DNA of 64,000 nt from an uncultured delta proteobacterium. Its GTDB lineage: Bacteria > Myxococcota > Myxococcia > Myxococcales > 40CM-4-68-19. The notes beneath the pieces are model-generated. The model did no database searches. It had not been told where the DNA came from and worked only from the letters and a program-made list of their open reading frames with translations. Shown piece after piece: positions 18,941-46,965 of this stretch (position 1 is its first letter; each line of letters opens with the position of its first letter). A program made the position numbers and the translations under genes. The stretch spans positions 124,001-188,000 of the forward strand of contig CAIWCD010000013.1 of NCBI GenBank assembly GCA_903911145.1, given 5' to 3'.

Positions 18941-21226
18941 ATGCGCGTCCAGTCATCGCTTGCATTCGCGATCTGTCTCTCGCTCGCCGCGGCCTGCTCG
19001 CAGAACACGGGCAACGGCCCCCCGACGGATCCGACCAAGAGCTACGCGCTCTCCGACGTCGGCGCGGCCGTCGTCACGATGCACCCGAACGACGTCAAGC
19101 AGTTCACCGTGCTCCTCTCGGAGCATGTCTCGGATCTGAACCAGGCCGCTGCGGACGCGGGCGCGATCGTGCTCGATGGCGGTGCATCGGATGCAGGCCC
19201 GTCCGATGCGGGCGCCGGAAATGGCGGCGGAGTCGCGAACGCGCCCATTCACTTCGAGTTCGATAACGAAGACCCCGCGGGCGCGCAGATCGATCACGCC
19301 GACACCACGACGGCAGCGAACGGCACGGCCAGCTTCAAGCTCACCGCCGGCGCGAAGGCGACGTTCAAGGTCATCGCGAGCTGGACCGGCCACCCCGAAG
19401 TCTCGCCCGTCGCCTTCAGCATCCAGGTCGTGAACATCCGCAAGCTCCTCCAGATCGTCGGCAGCGCGCAGGTCCGCGTCGCCAATGACGCGCAGAGCGC
19501 CACAGTCACGATGCCCTTCTCGAGCAGCATCGGCCTCAAGGTGCAGCTGCTCGATCAGGACACGGGCAACCCGATCGCAGGCGACACCATCGCGTTCACG
19601 CTTCCGAACACGGCGCCGCTCACGCTCAGCGGCGGCACGAACAACTTCTCCGTCTCGTTGACGACCGGCGCCACGGGCAACGCGCAGGTCTTTCTCGTCT
19701 CGTCGACGACAGCAACGACTGGAATCCTCGTCACGGCGCAGGACTCGGCCGGAGGCGGCGCGGTCACCTACTCTGTCACCGTCCAGAGCAACGCCAGCGG
19801 AGGGAGCTGCACGTCGTCTGCGCAGTGCGACCCGGGGCAGATCTGCGTCGGCGGGACCTGCACGACCAACAGTGGTGGCGGCTCCTGCACTGTCGGCAAC
19901 GACAACGGCTGTCCCTTCGGCTACGTCTGCGTGAACGGGACCTGCCAGCCGCCCGCGAATCCCAACTGCGACCCGAACAATCCGGCCGCGACCTGCCCCG
20001 CGGGAGACACCTGCCAGTGCGTCGGATCTCCCGGCGCGCAGATCTGCCAATGCGAGCCCGCCTGCAACCCTCCCTGCGATCCGGGACAGACCTGCGTGAT
20101 CGTCGGCAACACCGGCACCTGTGTCAGCCCCGCCGGAGTCGTCCCTGACCTCACTGGCATCTGGTACACGCGCCACACCTTCAGCATCCAGCAGGCACTC
20201 CCCGCCTTCGTGCAGACGATCCAGACCATCGTCCGCGACATCGACCAGGTGATTCAGGGCCAGTTCTTCACCGGCTTCTGGAGCTGGTTGAACGCGATCG
20301 TCCAGGCGGTCATCAACGCCTACGTCCCGACCTGGGTCACGACCATCATCGAGGTGCTCGATGACGTCGGCACGATCTTCTCGAACCTGCGCAGCGTCGG
20401 CTCGATGCGCGTGATGCCCGGATCGCCCACCGACCACACGCTCTTCAAAGGCACCGAAGTCTGGACCAGCTTCGTCTTCTACTGGCTGCCCCTCTGCAAC
20501 GGCCAGATCGGCGGCAACAACTACACGCCCGCATGCGCACGCTTCGATGTCGCGACCACCGACGCGACCGACCCGGGCACCAACGGGACCTGCGCGGGCC
20601 AGTCGCTGCCCACCATCAGCGTGCAGATAGCGCCGTTCACCGGTCAGATCGTGCAGGCAGGAAGCACCGGCCCGTGGACGTTCAACGTCGCGGACCGCCG
20701 CGTGCAGATGAAGATGGGCAAGCTGATTCTCGTCGCGCTCAACCTGCTCATCTCGTACCTCACGCCCTACAGCTGCATCGAAGACGCGCTCGCCTGCTCG
20801 CCTGGAAACACGTGCCTCCTCGACTGCCCGGCCTTCGGCACGTTCATCGAGGGGGTGACCAACGGGATCCTTCCGGCGGCGGTCGCGGAAGGGATCTGCG
20901 ATGCAGCGGCGAACGTCGCCGGTGGTCTGTTGACGCACTTCCTCGAGACCGTCACGTTTACTGCCGACACGATCGACTTCGCCGGACACGCCGTCGTCAC
21001 CACCGACTCAAGCGCGACAGCCGATTGCAGCGGCGGCGCGGGCGGGCCGTGCGCGAGCAAGCTCGGCAACGACAACTACGACACCGATCTGCAGAACAAG
21101 ACCGGACACCAGGATGGCTGGTGGAGCGGCAGCTTCTTCCTCGGCGCGATCGGCTGCACGCCTGGCTCGACGAGCAACAAGTGCATGCCGGGCGCGTGGG
21201 AAGCAGAGCGCACGCCGGTCCAGTAG
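18941..21226 (+). CDS. Large lipoprotein with Ig-like and Cys-rich modules
   Basis: This 761-residue protein has a lipoprotein signal ending in LSLAAAC. It has two Ig-like beta modules (about residues 90-165 and 185-280; the second resembles a Big-1-type domain, LLDQDTGNPIAGDTIAFTLPN). A Cys-rich stretch follows (about 285-395) of repeats of the type C....C..GQ.C..G.C, as in myxobacterial Dickkopf/EGF-like secreted proteins. A unique C-terminal domain (about 400-761) contains hydrophobic helices and more cysteines. It is probably anchored in the outer membrane facing outward. Its function is unknown. The start has CCGGAG upstream; TAGCGT/TAGACT at 18872-18884 may be the -10 region. Confidence 0.82.
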   Translation: MRVQSSLAFAICLSLAAACSQNTGNGPPTDPTKSYALSDVGAAVVTMHPNDVKQFTVLLSEHVSDLNQAAADAGAIVLDGGASDAGPSDAGAGNGGGVANAPIHFEFDNEDPAGAQIDHADTTTAANGTASFKLTAGAKATFKVIASWTGHPEVSPVAFSIQVVNIRKLLQIVGSAQVRVANDAQSATVTMPFSSSIGLKVQLLDQDTGNPIAGDTIAFTLPNTAPLTLSGGTNNFSVSLTTGATGNAQVFLVSSTTATTGILVTAQDSAGGGAVTYSVTVQSNASGGSCTSSAQCDPGQICVGGTCTTNSGGGSCTVGNDNGCPFGYVCVNGTCQPPANPNCDPNNPAATCPAGDTCQCVGSPGAQICQCEPACNPPCDPGQTCVIVGNTGTCVSPAGVVPDLTGIWYTRHTFSIQQALPAFVQTIQTIVRDIDQVIQGQFFTGFWSWLNAIVQAVINAYVPTWVTTIIEVLDDVGTIFSNLRSVGSMRVMPGSPTDHTLFKGTEVWTSFVFYWLPLCNGQIGGNNYTPACARFDVATTDATDPGTNGTCAGQSLPTISVQIAPFTGQIVQAGSTGPWTFNVADRRVQMKMGKLILVALNLLISYLTPYSCIEDALACSPGNTCLLDCPAFGTFIEGVTNGILPAAVAEGICDAAANVAGGLLTHFLETVTFTADTIDFAGHAVVTTDSSATADCSGGAGGPCASKLGNDNYDTDLQNKTGHQDGWWSGSFFLGAIGCTPGSTSNKCMPGAWEAERTPVQ

Positions 21227-27277: not shown

Positions 27278-27931
27278 CTATCGCGGGTGCGCGCCCAGCG
27301 CGGTGAGGAGCGCGATCGCTTCGGGCGAGGTCCAGTCGCGGCCGCCGATGAACTTGAAGCGCAGATTTCCGCTCGCGTCGACGAGATAGGTCTCGGGAAA
27401 TTTGTTGGTGCCCCACCGATCGTGGACTTTCCCATCCTCGTCGAGCGCGACGCGATACCCCGGCACGCGCTTGCCGAAGAACTTCTCGACTGGCTCCCAG
27501 CCCTCGTCGGCACTGACGGCGAGCACCTCGAACGTCGACGGATCGAAGATGCGCGAGAGGCGATCGATGCTCGGCTCCTCCTCGCGGCAGGGCCCGCACC
27601 AACTCGCCCAGAAGTTCACCATCATCAGGCGGCCGCGCAGTTGCGAGAGGCGCACTTTGCCGCCGCCACGCAGGGGCAGTTCGAAGTCAGACGCGGGACT
27701 TCCGTCGAGAGCATCTGCGCCGATCGAGCCGGCCACGCGATCGGTGGCGACGCCGAAGGAGAGCCAGAGCCGACTGGCCGCGACAGAGAGAAGGCAGGCG
27801 ATCGCGACGAGGACGAATCCGGTCTTCAGCCGCGCAGGCACGACCCACTCGCGCGATGGCTCGAGAGGCGGACCGCTCGAGGGAGAGAGAGACGACGGGC
27901 CAGGCGCAGCAGCGATCTCGGAAGTCGACAC
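27278..27931 (-). CDS. ResA/TlpA-like membrane-anchored thioredoxin
   Basis: This 217-residue protein is anchored by an N-terminal helix (about 37-58, TGFVLVAIACLLSVAASRLWL) with a periplasmic thioredoxin domain. The active site is WCGPC (Cys112, Cys115) within MMVNFWASWCGPCREEEPSI. The cis-Pro loop is FPETYLVD, and the VSADEGWEPVEKFF insertion is typical of AhpC/TSA-Redoxin TlpA proteins. These reduce disulfides outside the membrane, for example for cytochrome c maturation. The start is GTG 27931 with TAGAAC 6 nt upstream and no Shine-Dalgarno. It lies 48 nt after the penicillin-binding protein gene on the same strand. Confidence 0.88.
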   Translation of the reverse strand: MSTSEIAAAPGPSSLSPSSGPPLEPSREWVVPARLKTGFVLVAIACLLSVAASRLWLSFGVATDRVAGSIGADALDGSPASDFELPLRGGGKVRLSQLRGRLMMVNFWASWCGPCREEEPSIDRLSRIFDPSTFEVLAVSADEGWEPVEKFFGKRVPGYRVALDEDGKVHDRWGTNKFPETYLVDASGNLRFKFIGGRDWTSPEAIALLTALGAHPR

Positions 27932-30764: not shown

Positions 30765-32735
30765 ATGAAGAACATCGTCAGCATCATCGTCGCCCTGCTG
30801 GTCGGCCTCGCCGGCGGCTATGCCATCCGCGGCCAAATCGGCGGCGCCCTTCCCTCTGCTGCGCCGATCGCGGCGAACAAGAACGCGCAGCCGAACCCCA
30901 ACGCGGCGCCTCCCGGCTCTGATCAGATCTACAAGGTCATCGTCGGCGACGGCCCGAGCGTCGGCCCGGCCGATGCGCGCGTCACCATCGTCGAGTTCTC
31001 CGACTTCCAGTGCCCGTTCTGCAGCCGCGTCGTCGACACGGTGAAGCAGATCGAGAAGACCTACGGCAACGACGTTCGCATCATCTTCAAGAACAACCCG
31101 CTCCCGTTCCACTCGGACGCGCCGGGCGCCGCGAAGGCCTCCGTCGCCGCGTGGAAGCAGGGCAAGTTCTGGGAGATGCACGACGCAATGTTCGCCGCGC
31201 AGAAGATCCCCGACGGCCTCAAGCAGCCGGGCCTCGAGAAGATCGCGAAGGACATCGGCCTCGACGTCGAGAAGTTCAAGGCCGACATCGCCAACGCGGA
31301 TACGCAGCAGCTGATCAACTCCGATGTCACGCAGGCGCGGCAGCTCGGCGCGAACGGAACGCCGAGCTTCTTCATCAACGGCGCGAAGGTCGCGGGCGCG
31401 ATGCCGTTCGAGAGCTTCAAGACGGTGATCGACGCGGCGATGAAGCGCGCAGATGCGAAGATCGCCACGGGCACGCCCAGGTCGCAGGTCTACGACGCGC
31501 TCATCCGCGACGGCCTCACGCAGGCTCCGGCGCCGAAGGATCAGCCGCAGCAGGCGCCCCAGGCGCAGGCGAAGAAGATCGATCTCGACAGCACGGCGCC
31601 GACCAAGGGTGGCAAGAACCCGAAGGTTGCGATCGTGATGTGGAGCGACTTCCAGTGCCCGTTCTGCGGCCGCGTCGAGCCGACCGTGAAGCAGATCATG
31701 GACACCTATAAGGACGACGTGAGCGTCGAGTGGAAGAACCAGCCGCTCCCGTTCCACCCGAACGCGATGCCCGCCGCGAAGGCCGCGATGGCCGCGCACA
31801 AGCAGGGCAAGTTCTGGGCGATGCACGACCTGATGTTCGCGGGCCAGCAGCAGCTCGGCGACGCGAAGTATGAGGAGTGGGCCAAGGAGGCGGGCGTCGA
31901 CATCGCGCGCTGGAAGAAGGACATGGCGGCTCCGGAGCTCGAGGCCGCGATCAAGAAGGACATGGCAGAGGGCGCCGCGGCGGGCGCGAATGGCACTCCG
32001 GCGTTCTTCGTCAACGGCAAGTTCATCTCGGGCGCGCAGCCGTTCGACGCGTTCAAGACGGTCATCGACGCGCAGATCGCCAAGGCGAACGACGAGCTGA
32101 AGAAGGGCACGCCGGCCGCCAAGCTCTACGAGACGCTCGTGGCGGCGAACGTCAAGGAGGCCGGTTCGGCTCCTGCTCCGGGCGCTCCAGCCGCCGATGC
32201 CGCGCCGGTCAAGATCGACGTGGGCAACTCGCCCGCGCGCGGTGGCAAGAACGCCGCAGTCACGGTCGTCATCTGGAGCGACTTCCAGTGCCCGTACTGC
32301 TCGCGCGTCGAGCCGACCATCAACCAGCTGCGCACCGAGTACGGCGACAAGGTCAAGTGGGTCTGGAAGAACCAGCCGCTCCCGTTCCACCCGAACGCGA
32401 TGCCGGCCGCCGAGGCCGCGATGGCCGCAGGCGACCAGGGCAAGTTCTGGGAGATGCACGACAAGCTCTTCGAGAACCAGCAGAAGCTCGGGCCGGATCT
32501 CTACGACCAGCTCGCCAAGGAGATCGGCCTCGACCTGAACAAGTTCCACGACTCGATCAGCTCGGGCAAGCACAAGGCGGAGATCTCCGCGGACATGGCG
32601 GCCGGCGCAGCAGCAGGCGCGGGCGGCACCCCGACGTTCTTCATCAACGGGCACAAGCTCGTCGGCGCGCAGCCTGCCGATGCGTTCAAGCAGGTCATCG
32701 ACGCAGAGCTGTCGCACGCGGTCGCGAAGAAGTAG
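30765..32735 (+). CDS. Triple DsbA-like thioredoxin fusion protein
   Basis: This 656-residue protein has an N-terminal signal or anchor (MKNIVSIIVALLVGLAGGYAI) and three tandem DsbA-type (Thioredoxin_4) domains of about 200 residues. Each has a CxxC (CPFC 83-86, CPFC 298-301, CPYC 509-512) in SDFQCP(F/Y)C, and a cis-Pro loop (GTPSFFING, GTPAFFVNG, GTPTFFING). All three look catalytically intact. Domains 2 and 3 are most alike, including 41 nt of identical DNA. Ala/Pro/Gln linkers join the domains. It presumably oxidises, reduces or isomerises disulfides in the periplasm. It has its own promoter and terminator. Confidence 0.9.
   Translation: MKNIVSIIVALLVGLAGGYAIRGQIGGALPSAAPIAANKNAQPNPNAAPPGSDQIYKVIVGDGPSVGPADARVTIVEFSDFQCPFCSRVVDTVKQIEKTYGNDVRIIFKNNPLPFHSDAPGAAKASVAAWKQGKFWEMHDAMFAAQKIPDGLKQPGLEKIAKDIGLDVEKFKADIANADTQQLINSDVTQARQLGANGTPSFFINGAKVAGAMPFESFKTVIDAAMKRADAKIATGTPRSQVYDALIRDGLTQAPAPKDQPQQAPQAQAKKIDLDSTAPTKGGKNPKVAIVMWSDFQCPFCGRVEPTVKQIMDTYKDDVSVEWKNQPLPFHPNAMPAAKAAMAAHKQGKFWAMHDLMFAGQQQLGDAKYEEWAKEAGVDIARWKKDMAAPELEAAIKKDMAEGAAAGANGTPAFFVNGKFISGAQPFDAFKTVIDAQIAKANDELKKGTPAAKLYETLVAANVKEAGSAPAPGAPAADAAPVKIDVGNSPARGGKNAAVTVVIWSDFQCPYCSRVEPTINQLRTEYGDKVKWVWKNQPLPFHPNAMPAAEAAMAAGDQGKFWEMHDKLFENQQKLGPDLYDQLAKEIGLDLNKFHDSISSGKHKAEISADMAAGAAAGAGGTPTFFINGHKLVGAQPADAFKQVIDAELSHAVAKK
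31731..31771 (+). repeat. 41-nt direct repeat, copy in DsbA domain 2
   Basis: Identical base for base to 32364-32404. It encodes the WKNQPLPFHPNAMP segment after the CxxC helix. The equivalent part of domain 1 differs at several positions. Confidence 0.85.
32364..32404 (+). repeat. 41-nt direct repeat, copy in DsbA domain 3
   Basis: Second copy of the 31731-31771 sequence. The identity includes synonymous positions, pointing to a recent internal duplication or gene conversion between domains 2 and 3. Confidence 0.85.
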
Positions 32736-32779: not shown

Positions 32780-32818
32780 CCGGGGCGGCTCCTTTCTGGA
32801 CCGCCCCGGTTTTTTTTT
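32780..32818 (+). terminator. Strong intrinsic terminator
   Basis: A perfect 9-bp GC stem, CCGGGGCGG (32780-32788) with CCGCCCCGG (32801-32809), has a 12-nt loop and is followed by nine T (32810-32818). It is the clearest rho-independent terminator in the window. Confidence 0.93.
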
Positions 32819-46455: not shown

Positions 46456-46965
46456 TCAATCTGATTGCGTCTGCGTGCGCGTGGCCGGTGCAGGGAGCAG
46501 GCCGTTCCGCTGCAGCGCCGCGAGAAGATCCTCGACGCTCTGGTAGGTCAGCGAGAGCGGATCCTCGTGACGGAAGCGGATCTCACCGCTCTCGTCGATG
46601 ATGAAGATGGCGCGCCGGGCCGTGCCCATCAAGGTCCGCACGCCGTAGAGCCCGGCGACCTTGCCGCCCTCGTCTGCGAGCAGAGGGAAGCTCAGCGCGT
46701 AGGATTTGGCCATCCGCTCGTGCCGCTCGAGTTTGTCGGTCGAGATGGCCCAGAGCACCGCGCCCGTCGCGACGAGCTCCTGCCGCTGCGCCTCGTAGGC
46801 AGCGAGCTGGCGCGTGCAGACGGGCGTGAAATCTCCCGGGTAGAACGCGAGGACGACGACGCGGCCGCGCTGCGCCGCGAGGTGATAGTTGCCATCCGGG
46901 CTCTCGGCGGGCGGGACGCCATCGAGAGAGAAGTCGGGCGCGAGATCGCCTTCGAACGGACCCAT
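46456..46965 (-). CDS. 1-Cys peroxiredoxin (AhpC/TSA, BCP-like)
   Basis: This 169-residue thioredoxin-fold peroxidase reduces hydroperoxides. The peroxidatic Cys50 is in [20 protein letters not shown] (PxxxTxxC), followed by [37 protein letters not shown]. No other cysteine is present in the protein, so it must use an external thiol for resolution. TAGGGT (46980-46975) ends 9 nt before ATG 46965, which has no Shine-Dalgarno. Confidence 0.92.

Follow-up and report, generated by a model that had tools for sequence, protein, structure and literature searches.

The gene described here lies in a 64,000-nucleotide stretch of DNA (the window) from an uncultured delta proteobacterium of the Myxococcota and encodes an intact protein with three DsbA-type domains in tandem behind a single N-terminal membrane helix (Table 1). 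A Pfam search with the 656-residue protein matched both Thioredoxin_4 (PF13462; 273.9 bits against a cut-off of 23.2, 7e-82) and DSBA (PF01323; 218.9 bits against a cut-off of 25.6, 6.5e-65), each in three stretches. Every domain comprises about 175 residues and carries a CP[FY]C motif together with a Thr-cis-Pro loop. As the protein contains only six cysteines, all of them in the CxxC motifs, it has no lipobox. The N-terminal helix reaches a top 19-residue hydropathy of 2.14, pLDDT is below 50 at residues 15–49, and a Gly-rich GxxxGFxxG is the N-terminal pattern of the family consensus. A motif like the GTPxxxxYxxL of the first linker is also present after D2.

Table 1: Features of the tandem DsbA locus and in-frame TGA codons in three relatives (positions refer to the window unless a relative is named).
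Feature	Position	Strand	Basis or remark
Tandem DsbA gene, three domains, 656 aa, whole	30765–32735	+	ORF reading (ATG at 30765, TAG ending at 32735), Pfam, orthologues
N-terminal membrane helix, residues 2–25, then disordered stalk to about residue 53	30768–30839	+	model and hydropathy
Domain 1 (D1), residues 54–235; CPFC 83–86 = 31011–31022; TP 199–200 = 31359–31364	30924–31469	+	
Linker 1, short helix 239–247 (GTPxxxxYxxL-type) and low-confidence stretch 258–266	31479–31568	+	model
Domain 2 (D2), residues 270–446; CPFC 298–301 = 31656–31667; TP 411–412 = 31995–32000	31572–32102	+	
41-nt repeat, copy 1 (D2), encodes WKNQPLPFHPNAMP	31731–31771	+	identical to 32364–32404; mostly codon bias
Linker 2, helix 451–466 and low-confidence stretch 469–478	32115–32198	+	model
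Domain 3 (D3), residues 480–656; CPYC 509–512 = 32289–32300; TP 622–623 = 32628–32633	32202–32732	+	
41-nt repeat, copy 2 (D3)	32364–32404	+	exact match to copy 1
Terminator-like hairpin CCGGGGCGG...CCGCCCCGG, then T9	32780–32818	+	sequence; partial stem flagged, scan count not above shuffles
TlpA/ResA-like membrane-anchored thioredoxin, CGPC	27278–27931	-	link to tandem gene inferred; opposite strand
In-frame TGA, relative L097	5082, 5712		
In-frame TGA, relative L099	5178, 5808		
In-frame TGA, relative L064	5232, 7179		

The GC content at the three codon positions of the gene is 0.62/0.44/0.93 and its effective codon number of 27.6 is the lowest among the 33 called genes of the window, below those of the genes assigned to triosephosphate isomerase (29.5) and GAPDH (30.0), which suggests that the tandem DsbA gene is highly expressed. 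As the GC-rich hairpin and its nine T follow 44 nt past the stop codon, transcription of the gene probably terminates there. A conserved operon partner was sought among the neighbours and rejected, since the ser/thr kinase, PBP and MscS genes are either generic or kept only in close relatives. The TlpA-like thioredoxin gene of the window lies three genes away. Such a gene is found near the tandem gene at 13 of about 80 loci (the window and 12 others), at several of them directly downstream on the same strand, and the background is seven TlpA-like matches per 5.3 Mb in the window's own genome; as the loci are partly non-independent, we take this neighbourhood as suggestive only. Cys-rich lipoproteins had been predicted to be encoded nearby, and there is one candidate instead of several, about 10 kb upstream: the gene at 18941–21226 (+), which has a strong codon bias, encodes a probable lipoprotein with 32 Cys in 761 aa, a lipobox-like LAAAC and a weak Ig-like match, and its product is a possible client of disulfide enzymes. 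The window also encodes a peroxiredoxin-type AhpC/TSA protein (46456–46965, minus strand).

To some extent the protein is matched in almost the whole phylum (192 of 195 Myxococcota genomes), and about a hundred of the 195 genomes encode full-length three-domain orthologues with roughly 45–62% identity. Relatives occur in Corallococcus, Pyxidicoccus, Myxococcus, Hyalangium, Nannocystis and Minicystis as well as in many uncultured Myxococcota, and beyond the phylum in a Hydrogenedens genome (three domains) and in Troglogloeales and Nitrospirota genomes (two or three). We define the Myxococcota tandem-DsbA family by an N-terminal membrane helix, at least two Thioredoxin_4 domains per chain and full-length orthologues, all of which are found for the window protein. 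Two domains are present in 23, three in 72 and four in 19 of the distinct homologous proteins of the loci, with one protein each having six, seven and eight, and several loci carry two or three tandem DsbA genes in a row. The eight domains of L077 (2676–7778) are encoded in a single ORF, as are the seven of L058 (from 4983) and the six of L094 (from 4980); in the tree the seven-domain protein pairs its domains 1/5, 2–3/6 and 4/7, as though a block had been duplicated. Of the 72 distinct three-domain homologues 69, 70 and 70 retain CxxC at positions 1, 2 and 3, and 56 have exactly six Cys between D1 and D3, so that the original prediction of three complete, exported and active-looking domains, already in line with the motifs, loops and membrane helix of the window protein, is borne out by its homologues. 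In L071, L107 and L053 one or two domains show CPFS, with the nucleophile kept and the resolving Cys gone, and another domain shows CxxC. This tandem architecture of a known kind of enzyme is real, conserved and widespread in myxobacteria and is neither recent nor unique to the source organism. The possibility had been raised that it is a common fusion already described; common it is, with three-domain orthologues across the Myxococcota, but open-licence papers on tandem or fused DsbA or on Myxococcus DsbA, whose silence is weak evidence, held nothing relevant, and a tandem DsbA architecture with 2–8 domains is apparently undescribed so far.

The three domains of the window protein are 51% (D1–D2), 49% (D1–D3) and 58% (D2–D3) identical, so that D1 is indeed the most divergent, though modestly. 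The 41-nt identity between D2 and D3 is exact, and a recent duplication of these two domains had been proposed. However, given the identical amino acids, the chance of such a stretch is 0.0007 with the average codon usage of the window and 0.039 with that of the tandem gene itself, and at residues identical between D2 and D3 68 of 88 codons match where 63 are expected, with the same slight excess in D1/D2 and D1/D3. The identity is therefore little more than extreme codon bias and gives no evidence for a recent duplication. In a maximum-likelihood tree over 58 domains D1, D2 and D3 of the window each fall into a same-position clade with the orthologues of the same family (UFboot/SH-aLRT 100/99, 97/94 and 100/95), and constraining D2 and D3 of the window as sisters lowers the log-likelihood by 45 units (p-AU 0.041). 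From these sequences we conclude that the triplication predates the family, and both a recent duplication and a gene conversion of D2/D3 were rejected on the basis of the tree together with the codon-usage expectation. As the D2 and D3 clades of this lineage are possibly sisters (81/90), a lineage-level event before the split of the family is possible.

In three relatives, L097 and L099 with two domains and L064 with four, a TGA replaces the codon of the nucleophilic Cys while the homology continues in frame, giving the predicted active-site patterns U-U, U-U and U-C-C-U, respectively. All six UGA sites are followed by GAGGGUCGGUCCGACCCUC, which forms an 8-bp SECIS-like hairpin at a distance of about 14 nt from the UGA; none of the 321 Cys sites in homologous domains has an 8-bp stem, and where the same peptide occurs at Cys sites its Arg is encoded by CGC or CGT, whereas the UGA sites use AGG. 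The three relatives come from two genomes, both of which encode SelA (E <1e-130); no SelA was found in the source genome of the window. L064, L097 and L099 look like tandem DsbA proteins with two selenocysteines each, which is well supported by these sequence features, and the UGA with its hairpin at the nucleophile position also speaks for the domains being active. Among the tandem genes read, these are the only ones with an in-frame UGA at the nucleophile, and most of the internal stops in some other homologues lie at the place where a two-domain protein would end. We found no description of a multi-Sec bacterial DsbA or of a tandem two-Sec form in the open-licence literature, an absence that is weak evidence.

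A link to known selenoproteins comes from the top NCBIfam match of the window protein, NF041057 (Rcas_1661 family thioredoxin-like (seleno)lipoprotein, a 'DsbG-like' selenoprotein), with which it shares a domain having UxxC or CxxC; the score of 284.5 bits against a cut-off of 190 is a whole-protein score taken across the three repeated domains. Relatives of the NF041057 sort (L131, L132, L135 and L136) are single-domain and mostly lipoprotein-like, whereas in the window protein there are three domains, each with a Cys active site, and none of the one-domain lipoprotein character of that family. For the NF041057-type selenoprotein a review gives one Sec (PMC13188914).

An AlphaFold2 model built from 26 alignment rows (mean pLDDT 87.3, pTM 0.48) shows well-folded domains joined by two flexible linkers, and inter-domain contacts, for which the original prediction had suggested looking, are not confidently packed. 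The model fits domains that work in parallel at least as well as domains that might pass disulfides to each other, as originally suggested. Such a relay, in which domains with different redox potentials hand disulfides along the chain and the terminal domains meet the partners, could draw on the domain positions being distinct old lineages in the family, on the four-domain relative, for which selenocysteine is predicted in the two outer domains (1 and 4) and Cys is found in the inner ones (2 and 3), and on CPFS in single domains of a few homologues. Nevertheless we consider it unlikely, as in most homologues the three positions carry similar active-site motifs and as a fixed relay would hardly tolerate 2 to 8 domains across relatives, quite apart from the lack of confident packing in the model.

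The top PDB matches were a Silicibacter DsbA-like protein, Wolbachia alpha-DsbA2, BdbD and the ScsC proteins of Caulobacter, Proteus and Salmonella, all within about two Z units, and Foldseek and VIA matches to 4gxz, 7rgv and 4xvw agree with a ScsC-like catalytic domain. Trimeric isomerases are among the close folds (alpha-DsbA2, 6eez, Z 22.5; C. crescentus ScsC, 7rgv, Z 21.9; P. mirabilis ScsC, 6mhh, Z 21.7), and oxidases are equally close (BdbD, Z 22.1; C. diphtheriae DsbA, Z 21.3), so the redox direction is not set by the fold alone. Thr-cis-Pro and CP[FY]C are found in oxidases and isomerases alike, and no residue-level mark separating the two was found in the tandem DsbA protein. The likeness to ScsC, a Cu(I) binder (PMC8900818), could also be read as a dominant metal-binding (e.g. 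copper) or chaperone role as in monomeric StScsC, with redox activity being secondary; this is highly improbable, since the few neighbouring genes inspected included no recognisable copper gene and since UGA/Sec at the nucleophile of relatives speaks for a catalytic redox function.

Bacterial disulfide catalysts, as usually described, have one catalytic domain and form oligomers where several active sites are required; DsbC becomes multivalent as a dimer and ScsC as a trimer. In the ScsC trimers of Proteus mirabilis and Caulobacter crescentus and in Wolbachia alpha-DsbA2 three DsbA-like domains of the same fold are held together through an N-terminal helix, whereas the window protein has its three domains on one membrane-anchored chain and has no dedicated, conserved ScsB partner. 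The isomerase activity of PmScsC needs trimerisation and its mobile, flexible linker, and on its own the ScsC-type domain can work as an oxidase (PMC5524982). By analogy, three DsbA domains on flexible linkers may be a covalent version of this multivalency. A working analogy is also possible with eukaryotic protein disulfide isomerase, where several thioredoxin-fold domains of one chain act on one client (general knowledge and PMC5524982), although the window domains are of the DsbA type with a helical insertion and not of the PDI a/b type, so that the protein is no member of the PDI family.

In order to judge the redox direction, possible partners have to be considered. The source genome, which is 99% complete, gave no match to VKOR (PF07884) or DsbB (PF02600), while controls matched. 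DsbB is present in 3 of 193 Myxococcota genomes; VKOR is present in 142 of the 193, yet it is rare in the window's own family, with weak matches in only two members. DsbD-type proteins were matched in 56 of 60 genomes of the order, the simpler transporter type of DsbD_TM plus thioredoxin being widespread, and the source genome has two of them (L121 and L122), both on contigs other than that of the tandem gene, which thus has no ScsB-type transporter beside it. L122 is ScsB-like and resembles Rhodobacterales transporters encoded beside DsbA-family genes, but it is shared within the family with one close relative only and was rejected as the dedicated electron donor of the family. Another protein of the source genome, L006 (1471–3183, minus strand of contig C1), combines a weakly matched SurA-like N-terminal domain with a DsbA-type domain after it and is a possible chaperone/redox fusion.

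As DsbB and VKOR matches are missing and DsbD-type transporters are present, we favour, with a little less than even confidence, an inner-membrane-tethered, multivalent thiol-disulfide exchange protein that works as an isomerase or reductase. One N-terminal inner-membrane helix would display three Thioredoxin_4 domains (DsbA/BdbD/ScsC-type) on flexible linkers in the periplasm, each being an independent dithiol/disulfide centre, and we infer that the linked domains would act in parallel on one client, where the high local concentration of active sites could shuffle or reduce wrong disulfides. A transporter of the DsbD/CcdA type would most likely keep them reduced, possibly with a TlpA-like thioredoxin in between. 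Free variation of the domain number, together with the like motifs, makes a serial arrangement less likely than this parallel one. Against the isomerase/reductase direction counts that many tandem proteins of the phylum coexist with VKOR as an oxidant partner, and a multivalent thiol oxidase, which would donate disulfides to secreted proteins in the manner of DsbA or BdbD and be reoxidised by VKOR, or here by an unrecognised oxidase or a small oxidant, is a serious if not a probable alternative. It would also suit the high apparent expression, the fold shared with BdbD and other single-domain DsbA oxidases (Z about 21–22) and the oxidase activity of which the isolated ScsC-type domain is capable (PMC5524982). 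BdbD and the DsbA oxidases, however, have one catalytic domain and need an oxidising partner, for which the source genome lacks a DsbB or VKOR match and which is scarce as VKOR in the family and as DsbB in the whole phylum; still, a divergent or unfamiliar oxidase may be encoded there despite the missing family match.

Going beyond the single protein, it is conceivable, though we would not yet expect it, that the Myxococcota and a few other phyla possess a modular 'poly-DsbA' class of membrane-tethered chains with two to eight catalytic domains, some of them mixed Sec/Cys, that replace oligomeric isomerases and are independent of DsbB. If true, bacteria would have in this class their own equivalent of PDI, built through tandem repetition. 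With up to eight active DsbA domains per chain in a phylum nearly without DsbB, the question whether multivalency alone makes a DsbA domain an isomerase becomes directly testable. In the relatives with two predicted selenocysteines, and among them the mixed U-C-C-U protein, nature itself provides Sec and Cys for comparison on the same chain. In L097 and L099 a Cys-rich KPCDCGCPHGN.AKCKKEDPGCPRAP lies between the membrane helix and the first DsbA domain, and this motif is possibly metal-binding.
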